Part shown: piece after piece, positions 4,647-12,649 of the stretch | Position numbering within the stretch: position 1 is the stretch's first letter | Layout of the letters: every line of letters starts with the position of its first letter | From: Acidobacteriota bacterium | GTDB taxonomy: Bacteria > Acidobacteriota > UBA890 > WLXD01 | Length of the DNA stretch: 33,999 nt | Direction of reading: 5' to 3' | Assembly (NCBI GenBank): GCA_029263295.1 | Contig: JAJCXT010000065.1 | Coordinates: 1-33,999, forward strand | Translations under genes and position numbers: made by a program | The notes under the pieces: generated by a model | Database searches by the model: none | Told to the model about the DNA's origin: nothing | What the model saw: the letters and a program-made list of their open reading frames with translations, nothing else

Positions 4647-5579
4647 TCACCGCGCTTCAATCCGGTTGCCCGGAAGCAGCGCGGCCAGTCCTCTGATCTC
4701 CAGACCTGTGGCTGCGACCAGAAGTACAGCAGTCGAAAGATCCAAGAAAGTGCCTATTTCGTCAAGCCGCCGGGCTTCGCCAGGCCGCAACGCGAGCAGC
4801 AATGTTCGCTCGGAAGAGGACAGATTCTGTAGATCCCGCCGGGCCGGAGCGGGCTGCGGGCCGATCTGGAGCGCACCCTCGCGCAGATGCGTAAGGATGT
4901 CGTCGACGCTGGTGCAGGGATACGCGCCTTGCGATATGAGGGCGTGACAGCCAACGCTCGTCCGCGACGTAATGGGGCCCGGGACGACGAGTACGTCGCG
5001 GTTGTAGCTGATCGCGAGATCGGCCGTGATGCGGGCGCCGCACTTCTCGGCCGCCTCGACGACAACCGTCAGGGCGGCCATGCCGGCGATGATCCGATTT
5101 CGTTGCGGGAAGTGCCAGGGTGCCACCTTGGTGCCGGCTTCGAGTTCGGCCAGTAGCGCTCCCTGGGTGGCGATGCGTTCCGCCAGACCGCGGTGTCGTG
5201 CCGGGTACACGGGGTGCAGGCCTCCCGGCAGTACGGCCACCGTGTGCCCGCCCACCGCAAGAGCGCCCTCGTGAGCTGCTGCGTCGATGCCACGCGCCAT
5301 CCCGGAAACCACACTGACCCCGCGTCGCGCCAGCGCCGCGGCCAGGTCGACGGCTATCTCGCGCCCATAGCGCGTGCACGCGCGCGACCCCACGATAGCC
5401 ACGCGCGGCAGGTCGGCGAGATCGCCGCGCACGTGAAGCACCGCCGGCGGGTCGTGCGCGTCGTGCAGTAGGCGCGGGTACAGAGAGTCGCGCGGCGTGA
5501 TGCGCAGACAGTGGTCTGCGTAGCGCTTCGCTTTGTTGGGTCCTTTCGGTGTGATGCTCACGCCTGATGAGACGGCCAC
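4647..5579 (-). CDS. dprA: DNA-processing protein DprA (DNA uptake/recombination mediator)
   Basis: DprA loads RecA on incoming single-stranded DNA in transformation and is widespread even in non-competent bacteria. The Rossmann-like domain is clear: VAIVGSRACTRYG (60-72), SGMARGIDAAAHEGAL (92-107), FPQRNRIIAGM (157-167) and a late EAAEKCGARITADLA segment. The last 60 residues form the usual winged helix. The start is uncertain. The frame stays open to 6017, but that part lies inside the divergent gene and is not DprA-like. I use a GTG at 5579, giving 310 residues; an ATG at 5759 (370 residues) would match the usual family length, but its extra residues do not look like the SAM domain most DprA proteins carry. 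ComF in this window is another competence-family protein. Confidence 0.92.
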   Translation of the reverse strand: MAVSSGVSITPKGPNKAKRYADHCLRITPRDSLYPRLLHDAHDPPAVLHVRGDLADLPRVAIVGSRACTRYGREIAVDLAAALARRGVSVVSGMARGIDAAAHEGALAVGGHTVAVLPGGLHPVYPARHRGLAERIATQGALLAELEAGTKVAPWHFPQRNRIIAGMAALTVVVEAAEKCGARITADLAISYNRDVLVVPGPITSRTSVGCHALISQGAYPCTSVDDILTHLREGALQIGPQPAPARRDLQNLSSSERTLLLALRPGEARRLDEIGTFLDLSTAVLLVAATGLEIRGLAALLPGNRIEAR

Positions 5580-5620
5580 GCGTTGTGTCCTGCGGGCCAC
5601 GGCAGCGCACGGTCCCACGC

Positions 5621-5648
5621 TTGCGGCGCGGAGGCCGCGATCTATAGA
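5621..5648 (+). promoter_or_regulatory. Candidate sigma70-type promoter for the lipoprotein gene
   Basis: In the 178-base gap between the divergent dprA and lipoprotein genes, TTGCGG (5621-5626) and TATAGA (5643-5648) are 16 bases apart. Transcription would begin near 5655 and leave a leader of about 100 bases. The match is moderate. I saw no equally good promoter for dprA on the other strand. Confidence 0.3.
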
Positions 5649-5757
5649 CTCAAACAGTCGCCAAGCGGGCGGCACTTCTCGGGTCCCCCCAGGGTGGTCT
5701 TGCGGCTTCGGCCCATGACCGCCAGACGCCCTCTCCGTTCGGACGAGTCGGAGGCTC

Positions 5758-6840
5758 ATGTCTTCTGAACTCTTGCTAAAGAAGAGTCGCCGCCCCTCTG
5801 GGGATGGCAAGTGGTCCTTTCGCCGTGTCGCTACGACGCTCGCGATCGTTCTCGCGCTGGTTTCCGGTATCGCCTGTTCGGCTTCACCCGTCGAGCGCGG
5901 AAAGAACCAATCGCGCGAGGGCGTCTTCGCCGCTGACCAGGGATACTGGGAAGAGGCGGAGTTTCGCTGGCTGAAGGCGCTGGCAATCGCACAGCTCAAC
6001 GCCAGGGCGCTCAACAACCTCGCCGTTCGTTTTGAACGCGAGGGTGAGTTCCAGGACGCGAAGGAGTACTACGACAAGGCTCTTGTCGCTGCGGCTCCGG
6101 CCGAGCAGTTCTATATCGAACGCAACAATCGGCAGTTCGCCCCCATCTGGGAGCGCATCGCCAGTGGCGATATGGATGATGTGGATGCGGTCGAGTTGCC
6201 GTTAGAAGAGTTTCCCGTCGGTGAGGATCCAAACGTCGGCGTGATGGAGATCATCATCTCCGTCCCCGACCAGGGCCCGAACCTGGCGGGATACGATCGC
6301 GTGCTGATCGGGAACTTCGTGCCCGCGGAGACCTCGGAGTCGAACATCAACGACTTCGCGGTGCGGTACTTCCGTCGTCGCATCACCCAGCGGACGTTCT
6401 ACGAAACCCAGGACCAGGTAGGCGAGCCGCTCGATCCGACACAGCGCAGCGAGGCTCTCTTCGATGACTCGGCCTACTGGATCAGCCGTGCGGCTGACGC
6501 CCGTGCCGACCTGGTGCTGACCGGAACGATTGGCCTCACCACCGAGGAGGAGTCGCAGATGCTGCGCGAGCGCATCCGCACGCCCGAAGGTGAGATCCGC
6601 GAGGTCGCTCGATTCCAGGATGTCGTTACCTACAGAGTGACCTTCGACGTGGTCGTGCTCCGCGGAGAAGACGGCGAGAGGATATTAGACAAGACACTGG
6701 AGGCCGACGCCTCCTTTCCGGTCGAGGATGGCGCGTCCCATTCCGAGGCCGTTTTCGAGACCCTTGAGCGACTGCTGCCGCAGTTACTCGACACGATTAC
6801 CCCCCGTCGCTCAGAGCAGAGTCGCTACCTGATCTACTGA
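5758..6840 (+). CDS. TPR-containing exported lipoprotein, function unknown
   Basis: A 360-residue probable lipoprotein. A basic N terminus and hydrophobic segment (about 23-39) end in SGIAC, with C40 the likely lipidated cysteine; the lipobox is imperfect because position -3 is Gly. Residues about 50-115 form two or three tetratricopeptide-like helical pairs (GYWEEAEFRWLKALAI, GEFQDAKEYYDKALVA). Residues about 165-345 form an alpha/beta region with YDRVLIGNF and ADLVLTGTI, reminiscent of CsgG/TolB-N-like lipoprotein domains; that likeness is a guess. The start has GGAGG close upstream. It ends 21 bases before the Omp85 fusion gene, so the two are very likely one operon and the products may work together at the outer membrane. 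Confidence 0.8.
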   Translation: MSSELLLKKSRRPSGDGKWSFRRVATTLAIVLALVSGIACSASPVERGKNQSREGVFAADQGYWEEAEFRWLKALAIAQLNARALNNLAVRFEREGEFQDAKEYYDKALVAAAPAEQFYIERNNRQFAPIWERIASGDMDDVDAVELPLEEFPVGEDPNVGVMEIIISVPDQGPNLAGYDRVLIGNFVPAETSESNINDFAVRYFRRRITQRTFYETQDQVGEPLDPTQRSEALFDDSAYWISRAADARADLVLTGTIGLTTEEESQMLRERIRTPEGEIREVARFQDVVTYRVTFDVVVLRGEDGERILDKTLEADASFPVEDGASHSEAVFETLERLLPQLLDTITPRRSEQSRYLIY

Positions 6841-6861
6841 GCCCAGGGAGACCTAATACAC

Positions 6862-9786
6862 ATGCGCAGCCCATCCCTCGTTCGCCGGCATCTGTTTGCC
6901 TTTCTGTTGCTCGCCACCACGGCGGTAGCGCTCGGCTTCACACCTCAAGCCCTGGCGCAGTTCAACAACACTCCGTTCTCGAGCACCTTCGGCCAGAACA
7001 AGGTCACCTACGAGTCGTTCGACTTCTGGAAGTACTCGGCGCCGCACTTCGATGTTTACTACTACCCCGAAGAAGAGGCGCACCTCGACGAGGTCGTGGC
7101 GTTCGCGGAGGCCGCTTACGAACGCATCTCGCGCAAGATGAACCATCAGCTCAGCGAGCGGATGCCGATCATCTTCTATCAGACGCACCAGGATTTTCAG
7201 CAGACGCACATCCTGCCGTTCTTTCTGCCTGAGGGCGTGGCGGCGTTTGCCGAGCCTACGCAGAATCGGCTCGTGCTACCCGTGGATGACCCCCCGGATC
7301 AGTTGCATCTGCTGATGGTTCACGAGGTCACGCACCTCTTCGAGTTCGACTACTTCTTTGGCAATCGTCTTGGCGCCGCGGTGCGCGCCCAGCCGCCGGG
7401 CTGGGTAATGGAAGGCTTCGCCGAGTACATGGCGGACAACCTCACGACGCTCGACGAGATGATGCTGCGGGACATCGTGCTTGCCGACGACATTCCGACG
7501 CTCATCCAGATGAGCTACATCGACTCGTTCTTCAATAGTTACGTGCTCGGCGAGGTGGTCTGGAGCTACATCGAAGAGGAGTACGGCGACGAGGGCGTTC
7601 GGATCTTCCTCTCGGAGCTGCGCCGGGACCTGGGACAGGATGTCGAGCGCGACCTCGAGCGTTCCTTCAATGTCACGCCGAACGAGTTCAATACCGATTT
7701 TCGCGAGTGGCTGCGCGATCGCTATCTGCCGAACGTGCTCGATCACAGTGAAGGCCCGGACTTCGCGCGCGGCGTGATGACCGGCATCGCGTTCGAAGAT
7801 CGTCAGCCGGCCTTTAGCCCGGTGGTTTCGCCAACGGGCGACGAGTTCGCTGCGATCTCCGTCAATCGCAAGACGCAGCAGGTCGACATCTATACGTTCG
7901 ATTTCGCTACGGGCAAGCCGAAGAAGAACCTCACAGGTGGCCACCACGGCGACTTCGAATACGTCATCGGGCAAGGGGTGACCGTAGGGTTCCAGGCCGG
8001 TAACGACCTCACCTACTCCAACGACGGGTCGCAGCTGGCGTTCTTCGCTCGAACTCCACCAACCCGAACGCTGTTCGTGGTGGATGCCGACACGGGCAAG
8101 ATTCGCACCAAGTTCAAGACCGAGCTGGACCAGGCCCTGTCGCCCAGTGTTGGCCCCGACAACCGGGTAGTGTTCGCGGCCCACGAGAATGGTGTGCGTG
8201 ACGTCTATCTGTTCGATCCGCAGACGGAAACGCTGTCGAACCTGACGCAGGACGATTTCTACGACTACGCGCCGATCTGGTCGCCGGATGGGCAGAGCAT
8301 CGTGTTCGCCTCGCACGTCATGGGTCACAAGAAGCTGTTCCGCATCGACCTGGCGCGGCCGCAGCAGCGCATCCAGCTGACGTTCGGTCTGTACGACGAC
8401 ACACAGCCCTCCTTCTCTCAGGACGGCTCCAAGGTCTACTTCGTTTCCGACCGTACGGGCGAGCACAATCTCTACGGCATCGAGCTCGCCACGGAGACCG
8501 TGTTCCGCTACACGAATATCCTTCACGGCGCGTTCTTCCCGCACGAGTTGGCCGCGACCGGCGAGCTGATGTTCAGCAACTACAGCGACGGGTTCTATGA
8601 GCTGTACGCGATGGAGTTGCCGGAACCGGTCGAGACGTTCGTGGCCGTGGACGAAGCCATCGACGACGAAGAGATCGATCGCATCGAGGCCGAGGCGACG
8701 GCGCTCGCTGACGTCGAACTCTCTGATCAGAACCGCACGCAGTCGGCGGGTGGTGGCTGGCACATCTCGAGCATCCAGATCGCGGGCGGCTACAGCGTTG
8801 GATCGTTCGGCGGCACCGTTCTAGCGAACACGTTCATCGAGTTTCAGAACCTGATGGGGACACAGACCATCACCGCGGTACTGGGCTCGGTGCAGGGTGC
8901 GCGCAACTACACGGGCATCTATCGCAACTCGGCCCATCGCTGGAATTACGGTGCGATGCTCACCAGTCAGCGGTCTTTCTTCTTCACGCAGGACATCAAC
9001 GGCGGCCTCGATCGCAATTCGGTGTTCGAACTGGACGGCGGCGAGTTTTTTGCCGACTATCCGTTCACACGCGATTGGCGCTCCGAATTCTCACTCGGTT
9101 ACTTCCGACGGGAGTTTCTGCCGTCGAACTTCATTCTGCAGAGTTCCGGCGGGGAAGCGGTGCGCTTTGCGGATCAGTTCCACAGCGGCAACTATATGTC
9201 GGTGGGCGTGAAGCTCATTGGAGACAAGGCGCGTTTCAAGGAGTACGGCCCCTACGCGGGACGCCGCGTGAGTCTCGGAGTTGATGCGGCGCCGCCCGGT
9301 GTGGGCAATATCAACTTCTATGATGTGACCGTCGATCTGCGGCAGTACGTGCAGGTCACCAAGGACAGCCAGCTTGCGTTCCGTGCCTGGGGCGCGGGGA
9401 GTTTCGGTGACGATCCGTCGGTCTTCTACATCGGCGGCCTGAACCAACTCCGCGGCTATGACTACCTCCGTTTCAGCGGCAACCGCGCGTTTCTCGGCAA
9501 CGTTGAGTATCGCTTCCCGCTGATATTCGAGTCGCGCGCCGGCGATTTCGTTCTGCGGAATATCCGTGGATTGGTCTTCATGGACGTGGGCGCGGCGTGG
9601 TTCAAGGGAGAGGAGTTCAACTTCTCCGTTGACGGCAGTCTCGAGGATGCGCTGGCATCATTCGGCGTTGGCGTTGGAGTGAATCTGGTCGGCTTGCCGC
9701 TGTGGTTCTTCTGGGCGCAGCGTACCGACTTCAAGGAGCTCGACGGCGGTCCTGACTTCCAGTTCTACATCGGCCCGCTGTTCTAG
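6862..9786 (+). CDS. Zinc metalloprotease / PD40 beta-propeller / Omp85-type barrel fusion
   Basis: A 974-residue exported protein with three parts. A signal peptide (1-32, cut after ALA) leads into a gluzincin-type peptidase domain (about 50-300) with HEVTH (H154, E155, H158) and WVMEGFAEY, where E184 is the expected third zinc ligand. A TolB/PD40-like propeller follows (about 310-590), with repeats such as APIWSPDGQSIVFAS and PSFSQDGSKVYFVSD. After an acidic linker (about 592-622), residues 630-974 resemble a BamA/TamA surface-antigen barrel: the GGLNQLRGYDYLRFSG segment carries the RGY hallmark of Omp85 loop 6, and the protein ends in Phe, as outer-membrane barrels do. I recognise no POTRA domains. 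Location is therefore outer membrane with periplasmic domains. Substrate and role are unknown; it could secrete, assemble or trim envelope proteins. Confidence 0.88.
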   Translation: MRSPSLVRRHLFAFLLLATTAVALGFTPQALAQFNNTPFSSTFGQNKVTYESFDFWKYSAPHFDVYYYPEEEAHLDEVVAFAEAAYERISRKMNHQLSERMPIIFYQTHQDFQQTHILPFFLPEGVAAFAEPTQNRLVLPVDDPPDQLHLLMVHEVTHLFEFDYFFGNRLGAAVRAQPPGWVMEGFAEYMADNLTTLDEMMLRDIVLADDIPTLIQMSYIDSFFNSYVLGEVVWSYIEEEYGDEGVRIFLSELRRDLGQDVERDLERSFNVTPNEFNTDFREWLRDRYLPNVLDHSEGPDFARGVMTGIAFEDRQPAFSPVVSPTGDEFAAISVNRKTQQVDIYTFDFATGKPKKNLTGGHHGDFEYVIGQGVTVGFQAGNDLTYSNDGSQLAFFARTPPTRTLFVVDADTGKIRTKFKTELDQALSPSVGPDNRVVFAAHENGVRDVYLFDPQTETLSNLTQDDFYDYAPIWSPDGQSIVFASHVMGHKKLFRIDLARPQQRIQLTFGLYDDTQPSFSQDGSKVYFVSDRTGEHNLYGIELATETVFRYTNILHGAFFPHELAATGELMFSNYSDGFYELYAMELPEPVETFVAVDEAIDDEEIDRIEAEATALADVELSDQNRTQSAGGGWHISSIQIAGGYSVGSFGGTVLANTFIEFQNLMGTQTITAVLGSVQGARNYTGIYRNSAHRWNYGAMLTSQRSFFFTQDINGGLDRNSVFELDGGEFFADYPFTRDWRSEFSLGYFRREFLPSNFILQSSGGEAVRFADQFHSGNYMSVGVKLIGDKARFKEYGPYAGRRVSLGVDAAPPGVGNINFYDVTVDLRQYVQVTKDSQLAFRAWGAGSFGDDPSVFYIGGLNQLRGYDYLRFSGNRAFLGNVEYRFPLIFESRAGDFVLRNIRGLVFMDVGAAWFKGEEFNFSVDGSLEDALASFGVGVGVNLVGLPLWFFWAQRTDFKELDGGPDFQFYIGPLF

Positions 9787-10638: not shown

Positions 10639-11406
10639 TCAGCGTTGTTTGGGGATCTTCACGTCGCCCGCCACGTCGCGGTGACGAATGCCGCCCGAAC
10701 CGTCGTCCTGCACGGTGAAGTCGCCGCCTACGGAGGCCACCCAGATGCCGCCGGAACCATCCTCGTGGACCATCACAGAGCCGCGCACGCCGTCGATCTC
10801 GATGTTCCCGGAGCCATCGTCGTCGACGACTACCGAACCGGCGTCGTCAATGTTGATGTTGCCGGATCCGTCAGTAATCCAGATCTCGCCACCGACACTC
10901 TCGAGGCCGATGTTGCCGGATCCGTCATCGATAGAGACGTCTCCTGCGACGCCGGATATCTCGAGGTTGCCTGAGCCGTCCTCGAGTTCGACACTGGCAA
11001 CGTCGCGGATGGTGAGGTTGCCGCTCCCGTCGTCAACGCGGAGCGCCATACCGGATGGGACGCGGACGTGCAGGTCGATGTAGGCGTAGCGTCCGCCAGT
11101 CCAGCTCCAGCCGTCAGGGATCTCGGTCTCGATCGTGACGCGGTCGTCACGTGGACTGACCTCCACTGACATTTCCTCGAGACGATCGGCGTCCGAGGCG
11201 CAGGCGCGCCCCTCGATCACGATTCGGTCTCCGCCGCCGCCCTCGATTACCAACTCACCAGCGCCGGCGATGATGACGGCCAGGCTAACGCCATCCGCGG
11301 CGGTGCGCAGATCGATGTCGCGCGAATGCTCGCAGCGCTCCGCCAAGGCTGGCTGGGCGAGTACGAGGCAGGCGAGAAGAAAGACTCCGACGAAAGCTCT
11401 GCGCAT
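10639..11406 (-). CDS. Exported DUF4097/DUF2807-like beta-solenoid repeat protein
   Basis: A 255-residue exported protein. The signal peptide is clear (1-22, cut after ALA). From residue 126 the chain has seven DGSG[N/G] motifs (Asp at 126, 143, 161, 179, 197, 216, 235), 17-19 residues apart, each followed by a short beta strand such as NIEIDGV. This strict period is typical of a right-handed beta-solenoid, and GSGNI motifs occur in DUF4097 and DUF2807 (head GIN) proteins, whose functions are poorly known. The Asp/Gly/Ser/Asn turns could bind calcium, which is inference. An AGGTG ribosome-binding site lies four bases before the ATG, and a TACAAT -10-like box is at 11421-11426. It is likely periplasmic or surface-located. 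Confidence 0.78.
   Translation of the reverse strand: MRRAFVGVFLLACLVLAQPALAERCEHSRDIDLRTAADGVSLAVIIAGAGELVIEGGGGDRIVIEGRACASDADRLEEMSVEVSPRDDRVTIETEIPDGWSWTGGRYAYIDLHVRVPSGMALRVDDGSGNLTIRDVASVELEDGSGNLEISGVAGDVSIDDGSGNIGLESVGGEIWITDGSGNINIDDAGSVVVDDDGSGNIEIDGVRGSVMVHEDGSGGIWVASVGGDFTVQDDGSGGIRHRDVAGDVKIPKQR
10690..11031 (-). repeat. Seven degenerate 51-57-base coding repeats
   Basis: The DNA encoding the seven DGSG motifs recurs every 51-57 bases, for example GTTGCCGGATCCGTC near 10858 and again near 10912 on the plus strand. Copies differ mostly at third positions, so the array is old and under protein-level selection rather than a fresh tandem duplication. Confidence 0.7.
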
Positions 11407-11539: not shown

Positions 11540-12469
11540 CTAGCGACCGAGCGCGGTTGGCGGCGCCGGCTGTCGACAGTAGCGGATCGTGCCTGCGCTG
11601 TACGAGATAAACACAGGGCAGCGCGCGACCAGAGGCGCACCGATGATCAGCACCGGTTTGGCCTGCATTCCCAGAGCGCCGAAAATCGGCAGGTCACCAA
11701 CTATGGTGCGCAGGCCGGAGAACAATGTGCCGTTGATCACGAGGCCCCCCAACGCGCCTGAGTGGAACTCGAAGTCGTCGCCGCCGAGCCCCGGACTGGC
11801 GGTCTGCGCGCTGTTCGCGAGCACCTCGACACCAGCCGTGCCGCTGCCAACTCGGTTGATCAGCATGCGCCGGGCCCCGGAGTCGAGGAGCGCCTCTACC
11901 ACAGCGCCATTCACCTCCACGCGGTGGCGTATGAGACGCCCACCGAGAAGCTCGATTGGGAACGCGGCACCCAATACGGCGGCGGCACCGTCTGTCGGTG
12001 TGGCGCCCCGTGGGTACATCCACAAACTGCCTGCCGGAGCGTCAATCATCACGTCGAAGCGGCTGAGAATATCGGCCCCGAGTATGCCGTCGAACGTCTG
12101 GTCATCAGAAACCAGCTCCTGGTTCGGCAGGACGATGACGTCGCGGTCATCGATCGAGAATTCCCCGACGCGGAGCGAAGGAACGGTGGCGAGCAGCGCT
12201 GCCGCGGGCCCGCTCGCGCCCTGAATCTCGATCTCGCGGTTGGGCCCCCGCGAGAAGCGCTCGGCGGTCTGTGCCGAAACCGCGGTCCATGACGCGCCCG
12301 TATCCAGAACGAAGCGCAGTGGCACGGGCGCATCGTTTAGATAGACCGGCACCACGAGCCATCCGAGATCGACCATCGGCACTTGGACCTGGGCGCTTAT
12401 GCCAGCGGGAGCACTGGCACTCAGAAGTATAGCGAGCACCACGATGGGGCCAGACATGCGGACATGCAT
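11540..12469 (-). CDS. Exported single-chain, two-lobed retropepsin-like aspartic protease
   Basis: A 309-residue protein from the ATG at 12469 (another ATG at 12457 is also possible; the frame is open upstream to 12601). The signal peptide covers about 1-27 and ends ISA. Lobe one has FVLDTGASWTAVS (D56) and the flap-distal DGILGADIL (127-135). Lobe two has VVEALLDSGARRMLIN (D196) and LIIGAPL. Each lobe resembles Asp_protease_2/gag-type retropepsin domains, which normally dimerise; here both catalytic Asp motifs lie in one chain, as in pepsin. Location should be periplasm or outside. It is in the minus-strand cluster with the HhH protease upstream (180-base gap) and the solenoid protein downstream. 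The substrate is unknown. Confidence 0.82.
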   Translation of the reverse strand: MHVRMSGPIVVLAILLSASAPAGISAQVQVPMVDLGWLVVPVYLNDAPVPLRFVLDTGASWTAVSAQTAERFSRGPNREIEIQGASGPAAALLATVPSLRVGEFSIDDRDVIVLPNQELVSDDQTFDGILGADILSRFDVMIDAPAGSLWMYPRGATPTDGAAAVLGAAFPIELLGGRLIRHRVEVNGAVVEALLDSGARRMLINRVGSGTAGVEVLANSAQTASPGLGGDDFEFHSGALGGLVINGTLFSGLRTIVGDLPIFGALGMQAKPVLIIGAPLVARCPVFISYSAGTIRYCRQPAPPTALGR

Positions 12470-12649
12470 CAGCGGAGTGCTCGGTGGGGGTAACGAGGGA
12501 CCAGGGCGGGCTTCTCCCCAGAGGATAGATAGAGAGACCCGCTCGCGGCCAGTGCGGCCGTCGCCGTTGGGTGAGATGGCCCATGGCAGGAGACGAAGCA
12601 CGATCCTCCCGTGGACAGGCCGGGTTGGTGTGAGTCACGCGGCAGATCC

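Follow-up and report, generated by a model that had tools for sequence, protein, structure and literature searches.

Architecture of protein B

The 33,999 nt window analysed here (contig JAJCXT010000065.1 of assembly GCA_029263295.1, from an Acidobacteriota bacterium) is a single contig of a 3.36 Mb draft genome that is 78% complete. It carries two adjacent genes on the forward strand, gene A (5758–6840, 360 amino acids) and gene B (6862–9786, 974 amino acids), with 21 bases (6841–6861) from stop to start codon; an earlier note on this DNA had given this arrangement correctly. B joins a peptidase, a TolB-type propeller and an Omp85 barrel in one chain, and A is its conserved partner across much of the phylum. 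The closest named relatives of B are found in Acidobacteriota metagenome genomes (90% and 84% identity).

Pfam profiles identify the barrel (residues 633–974, 8758–9783; Omp85, PF01103, E 5.9e-15) and the propeller (residues 318–594, 7813–8643; PD40, E 3.4e-17). The propeller also gives a TolB-like match (E 5.4e-31, 108 bits against a curated TolB cut-off of 343), with no Pfam match to TolB_N in B and none of the propeller to PQQ_2. In fold comparisons the propeller aligns with TolB (Z ∼ 26 over 243–250 residues) and the barrel with BamA (Z 24.9 over 308 residues, rmsd, root mean square deviation, 3.6). The AlphaFold model of B (mean predicted local distance difference test, pLDDT, 85.2; predicted template modelling score, pTM, 0.82) has a peptidase that is largely helical, a propeller of six blades and a barrel of 16 strands (blades and strands counted from the model) and no POTRA; profile searches found no POTRA match in B up to E 1 and none on this contig. 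A search of PHROGs gave nothing useful, and matches in a viral fold library were mostly of propeller type. From the profile matches, the model and the fold comparisons, B is therefore a peptidase–TolB-propeller–Omp85 protein, which bears out the fusion of propeller, barrel and protease put forward in the earlier note.

A scan of named genomes confirmed 137 relatives of B, of which the best 80 loci were used. The peptidase domain (residues 42–303, 6985–7770) contains the HExxH motif (HEVTH, residues 154–158, 7321–7335), present in all 79 readable B frames among the 80 loci (at locus L102 B is not in one frame). In an alignment of 48 homologues, drawn from Acidobacteriota and other phyla, H154, E155, H158 and E184 are unchanged in every one. 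E184 (7411–7413), in a WxxEG motif (WVMEG here), is the likely third zinc ligand. Peptidase_MA_2 (PF13485) is matched by 18 of 21 homologous protease domains (best E 2.6e-15), with no match of the window's own domain up to E 0.1; M48 is matched neither by B of the window nor among the families listed for the 21 domains. The domain is thus predicted to be an active-looking zinc peptidase.

The 16-stranded barrel and a loop-6 RG motif place B in the Omp85 superfamily. The motif is LRGY (residues 863–866, 9448–9459), which we take to be the counterpart of the Omp85 loop-6 (V/I)RGF motif; R864 is identical in 48 and G865 in 45 of the 48 homologues. The N-terminal regions of Omp85 proteins are on the periplasmic side. 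A signal peptide (residues 1–32, 6862–6957) was recognized by eye, with cleavage after ALA, and the model has a helix at residues 6–22. B is therefore probably exported, and because of the barrel fold and the periplasmic location of the enzyme domain of PlpD, its N-terminal parts would lie in the periplasm.

With a WD40-like propeller before the barrel and no POTRA, B has the architecture of the WD40-Omp85 subfamily, described in the main text of Heinz et al. (2014; PMC4104836) as a TolB-like propeller plus Omp85 barrel without POTRA and likened there to a BamA–BamB fusion. The propeller–barrel arrangement without POTRA is common to both; B adds a conserved zinc peptidase and an A1–A2 partner (described below). 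The main text of that paper nowhere uses the word 'peptidase', and its WD40-Omp85 section gives no partner genes. The open-access literature, a scope that most subscription papers and bioRxiv preprints fall outside, yielded no paper on the peptidase of B or on the partner. The architecture has thus been known since 2014, and the conserved protease and the A1–A2 partner seem to be unstudied.

Gene A and its linkage to gene B

The earlier note described A as a tetratricopeptide repeat (TPR) lipoprotein. The TPR half of that description stands: the TPR_2 match (E 8.7e-6) is below the Pfam cut-off, and the helix pairs at residues 44–135 (5887–6162) of the model align with TPR proteins. That A is a lipoprotein is a prediction from the lipobox pattern. 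The signal region (5758–5877) holds the lipobox-like stretch IVLALVSGIAC up to Cys40; a lipobox precedes A1, A2 or fused A in 27 of 48 loci, and the same-order relatives L069, L070 and L072, whose A is fused, have none.

A second domain, of mixed fold (residues ∼ 162–360, 6241–6837), had been missed by the earlier note. The model of A has a mean pLDDT of 87.8 and a pTM of 0.56, so its two halves are not confidently placed against each other. In fold comparison the second domain resembles FlgT (Z 14.7 over 153 residues, rmsd 3.5) and PelC (Z 13.5 over 129–132 residues, rmsd 2.6), and PelC, GNA1162, CsgG and LptE are among its Foldseek matches; LptE and CsgG are absent from the comparison that gave FlgT and PelC, which is not evidence against them. 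Likeness in sequence is weak: 4 of 22 homologues of this domain match FlgT_M (best E 3e-4), and its profile gave no match below E 0.2 against solved structures. Judged by the model, the domain belongs to the FlgT/PelC/LptE/CsgG fold class, whose known members are periplasmic or outer-membrane-associated.

In most relatives two genes precede B, A1 (TPR, ∼ 105–220 amino acids) and A2 (∼ 180–300 amino acids), which is why, in a search of 40 genomes, distant relatives matched A as two separate pieces. By this sequence comparison the window's A is a fusion of A1 and A2. Fused A occurs in 8 of the 48 acidobacterial-type loci with A2. In the tree of B it appears in two or more distinct lineages, L089 being the second; L102, likewise fused, lies outside the tree.

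The 80 loci were split, by taxon names and presence of A and after its distribution had been seen, into 49 of acidobacterial type (including loci named 'bacterium', 'candidate division B38' and 'Aminicenantes' and one 'Deltaproteobacteria', L082) and 31 others. On this division A2 lies just upstream of B in 48 of the 49 and A1 in 47, the missing cases (L071, L074) both being at contig ends. Profiles detected neither A1 nor A2 in the 31 loci from other phyla (best E for the A2 model without filters, 2.3). In the tree of B, built from 48 of 81 sequences (the window and 47 of the 80 loci), a single fully supported branch separates 32 rows with A from 16 without. This implies a single gain of A beside B, or a single loss, with the fusion of A1 and A2 coming later, at least twice.

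We then consulted an even sample of 297 Acidobacteriota genomes (290 of them ≥ 90% complete and ≤ 5% contaminated). A2 was found in 129, and the peptidase domain in 190 at E 0.001, in 147 below 1e-50 and in 128 below 1e-70. With the last value taken as the cut for the closest type of B, a choice made after the search results had been seen, both genes are present in 123 genomes, B alone in five, A2 alone in six and neither in 163. Two of the five genomes with B only (G011, G026; loci L059, L057) carry directly upstream a frame of the right size that resembles a divergent A2. At the wider cut of 1e-50, A2 accompanies B in 127 of 147 genomes; the other 20 include genomes whose best B is of a more distant type, an extra copy elsewhere. 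A2 without any strong B occurs in only 2 of the 129 genomes. The more distant type of B (E ∼ 1e-62 to 1e-67) is an extra copy in some genomes with A-linked B (e.g. G291:C88, G056:C41, G105:C17, G067:C5:15799) and the sole B elsewhere.

A2 and B adjoin on one strand in 90 of the 123 genomes, where the A2 domain ends a median of 115 bases before the peptidase domain begins, and are apart in 33. In G021 and G034 A1–A2 precede a ribosomal L21 gene, with B on another contig; in G034 they also neighbour dprA (L21 and dprA were identified by eye). Two of the 33, G118 and G295, are single-contig genomes, in which A2 and B are ∼ 0.9 and ∼ 1.1 Mb apart. That both genes persist even where they do not adjoin points to a functional tie. 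A simple counting method, applied to the window and each of its two nearest relatives, gave ratios of non-synonymous to synonymous substitution rates (dN/dS) of 0.12 and 0.16 for A, 0.07 and 0.11 for B, and 0.04 and 0.07 for the peptidase part. Recurrence across the phylum and low dN/dS argue that the pair is not due to chance, and co-occurrence across the 297 genomes rules out a chance neighbourhood. The earlier note had proposed checking conservation of the pair, and both this sample and the adjoining genes at 48 of 49 loci confirm it. We regard the architecture together with the tie between A and B as highly probable.

That A and B are mere neighbours with unrelated functions is accordingly a very improbable reading: operon inertia could keep a shared position beside dprA, but the 33 genomes that retain both genes at separate places, and the rarity of A2 without a strong B, are difficult to reconcile with it.

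Canonical machinery and neighbours of B in other phyla

Elsewhere in its own genome the pair is accompanied by two POTRA-Omp85 proteins, one of which lies beside lpxA and is the POTRA-BamA, by BamD on another contig, TolB on contig C12, one TamB and a 430-residue Omp85 protein. Because BamA, BamD, TolB and TamB are separately encoded, A–B is an accessory addition to the standard machinery and not a substitute for it. The earlier note had asked for canonical bamA, bamB and bamD elsewhere; the first and last are there, and the profile search found no BamB above cut-off in this 78%-complete genome. M48 matches were found at five places, and of the two that were read one has membrane helices and the other no TPR match; this search for a BepA-like M48 plus TPR protein does not exclude BepA.

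Several equations with known proteins were rejected. B is not a replacement for BamA, since a POTRA-BamA exists beside lpxA; A is not BamD, having no match to YfiO (the BamD family) up to E 1; and the propeller of B is not BamB, as the earlier note's comparison would have it, being TolB-type by profile and fold and not a separate lipoprotein. The pair resembles the β-barrel assembly machinery (BAM) in combining a barrel of BamA type with a propeller and a TPR protein, as do BamA, BamB and BamD. It differs in the lack of POTRA, in a propeller of TolB and not PQQ type, in an A that is not YfiO, and in the extra peptidase and FlgT/PelC-like domain. Taken as homology, the 'Bam-like set' of the earlier note, which itself called the resemblance architectural only, is therefore not supported: the parts of the pair are not homologues of BamB or BamD.

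B occurs in at least eight phyla by the taxon names of the records, and in the 31 loci from other phyla it stands without A. In L124 and L137 (the latter Krumholzibacteriota) tamB directly precedes B (PF04357, E 9.5e-27 and 1.9e-31) and is itself preceded by a POTRA-Omp85 gene, an apparent tamA–tamB–B operon (L124:2170–10985; L137:1815–10946); both TamB matches in G304, the genome of L124, are parts of that tamB gene. B was rejected as TamA itself because it lacks POTRA and a POTRA-Omp85 already precedes tamB at both loci. A PQQ propeller gene follows B directly in L127 and L131 (Zixibacteria) and L141 (Ignavibacteriales) (PF13360, E 6e-38, 1e-58 and 8e-22). These genes (L127:4796–5983, L131:5955–7118, L141:6242–7411) overlap the stop codon of B and encode BamB-type proteins with, by eye, a lipobox-like N-terminus. 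A distant PQQ match lies 5 kb from B in L140. Six other tamB genes (L185–L190, including the second tamB of the genome of L137) adjoin an Omp85 gene with B absent, and L191 and L192 gave no match to tamB or Omp85 profiles. The TamA–TamB (2 of 31) and BamB-type (3 of 31) neighbours give independent support to a role in outer-membrane assembly and, with the separate BamA and BamD, uphold the accessory role suggested in the earlier note. A hybrid BAM–TAM complex is reportedly present in Borrelia (PMC13382580).

Among the 80 loci, recurrent neighbours that could be named are housekeeping or envelope genes, and no dedicated secreted substrate gene was noticed among them. A metallo-β-lactamase-type gene (by eye) lies just downstream of B in 11 of the 80, all of acidobacterial type (e.g. 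L075:8159–8920).

Proposed function and genomic surroundings

For a combination of Omp85 barrel, propeller, TPR adaptor and a peptidase at the barrel's foot, the simplest reading is a device for assembly and quality control. We hold, with moderate confidence, that A–B is a module for outer-membrane assembly and quality control that carries its own protease, and that it acts as an accessory on envelope proteins under assembly. B would be exported and seated in the outer membrane by its BamA-type barrel, with the TolB-type propeller and the zinc peptidase on the periplasmic side in place of POTRA. A would dock to B in the periplasm, its TPR part binding a client or partner and its FlgT/PelC/LptE-like part holding it to the barrel or to the outer membrane. 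Clients near the barrel may be helped to assemble and, if stalled or in need of processing, cut. The scheme presumes that A physically contacts B and that the peptidase cuts; the kind of client, too, is presumed. A sharper version, which we offer tentatively and think less probable, is that B unites an Omp85 machine and a proteolytic checkpoint in one chain, in effect BamA plus BepA, with A1–A2 as its adaptor in Acidobacteriota and TAM or BamB-type partners elsewhere.

BepA carries its TPR and M48 domains in one soluble chain. BepA (YfgC) of Escherichia coli, reported to act on LptD at BAM, gives a precedent for the function; like the pair, it brings a zinc peptidase together with TPR at an Omp85 barrel. 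It differs in being of M48 type, whereas B has a Peptidase_MA-type domain fused to the barrel and the TPR lies in another protein. PlpD and other enzyme–Omp85 fusions likewise place an enzyme, probably periplasmic, N-terminal to an Omp85 barrel, and that of PlpD is reported to stay in the periplasm; the enzyme of PlpD is patatin-type, that of B a peptidase with a propeller. A patatin–Omp85 barrel fusion (PlpD-like; Patatin, E 3e-36) is encoded in the window's own genome (L179:3690–5888, reverse strand, G000:C52). In the text on the Flavobacterium johnsoniae BAM (PMC12611786), phylum-specific subunits are likewise added to a BamA-type barrel; these (BamG, BamH, BamM, BamP) differ from A and B, and the word 'peptidase' is absent from that text.

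Several observations weigh against the module we favour. TamB or BamB-type neighbours accompany B in only 5 of the 31 non-acidobacterial loci, gene profiles finding neither a tamB nor a PQQ gene beside B in 26, and the two loci with tamB (L124, L137) sit side by side as sisters in the tree of B. A POTRA-Omp85 occupies the place of TamA at both, so B does not replace TamA, and the sole TamB found in the window's own genome is near a POTRA-Omp85 and not near B. The genome co-occurrence counts carry no correction for kinship. Proteins with the fold of A2 also have roles in flagella, curli and the export of polysaccharide.

Among the alternatives, the one that survives best, though we think it unlikely, is the view of the earlier note that barrel and propeller form an accessory insertase for a class of outer-membrane proteins, with the peptidase secondary. 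The alignment of the barrel with BamA over 308 residues and the TamA–TamB and BamB-type neighbours would suit an insertase, but B has no POTRA; and since the peptidase residues are invariant and this part is the most constrained of those measured, a secondary peptidase is improbable. Less likely again is a secretion device whose barrel delivers its own peptidase–propeller, or a partner protein, to the surface, as in the first proposal for PlpD and in TpsB. B does have a signal peptide and an N-terminal passenger ahead of the barrel, and enzyme–Omp85 fusions exist, the patatin fusion of the same genome among them; against this, the passenger of PlpD was reportedly found in the periplasm, and the pair has housekeeping surroundings and no recurrent substrate gene noticed beside it. 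Export of lipid or polysaccharide by the barrel with a PelC/LptE-like lipoprotein and TPR, comparable to PelB–PelC or LptD–LptE, we consider more doubtful still. The fold matches of A2 to PelC, FlgT and LptE fit such a role, as do lpxH-like genes (named by eye) beside B in Marinimicrobia, yet the barrel is Omp85 and not LptD or PelB, the peptidase would have no evident part, and the operon holds no sugar or lipid genes.

If A and B do form an assembly and quality-control module, they could show whether one Omp85 scaffold combines assembly and proteolysis. Here a protease is covalently joined to the barrel, in a combination conserved in many phyla and linked to a defined partner. Outer-membrane assembly and policing outside Proteobacteria and Bacteroidota is largely unknown territory, to which the pair offers a direct genetic handle.

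In the window, dprA and topA adjoin the pair on the opposite strand. The longest dprA frame (4647–6017, reverse strand) overlaps the start of gene A; its true start is probably further in, because the DprA match begins at residue 172. Much of the remaining window carries housekeeping genes (obgE, an EPSP/MurA-type synthase, prmC, prfA, rho, lon, clpX, tig). The gene at 10639–11406 (reverse strand) encodes a secreted protein with repeated DGSGNI-like units, a repeat protein by its look, with no Pfam match above cut-off. That at 11540–12601 (reverse strand) encodes retroviral-type aspartyl protease domains in two stretches (Asp_protease_2, E 8e-22).

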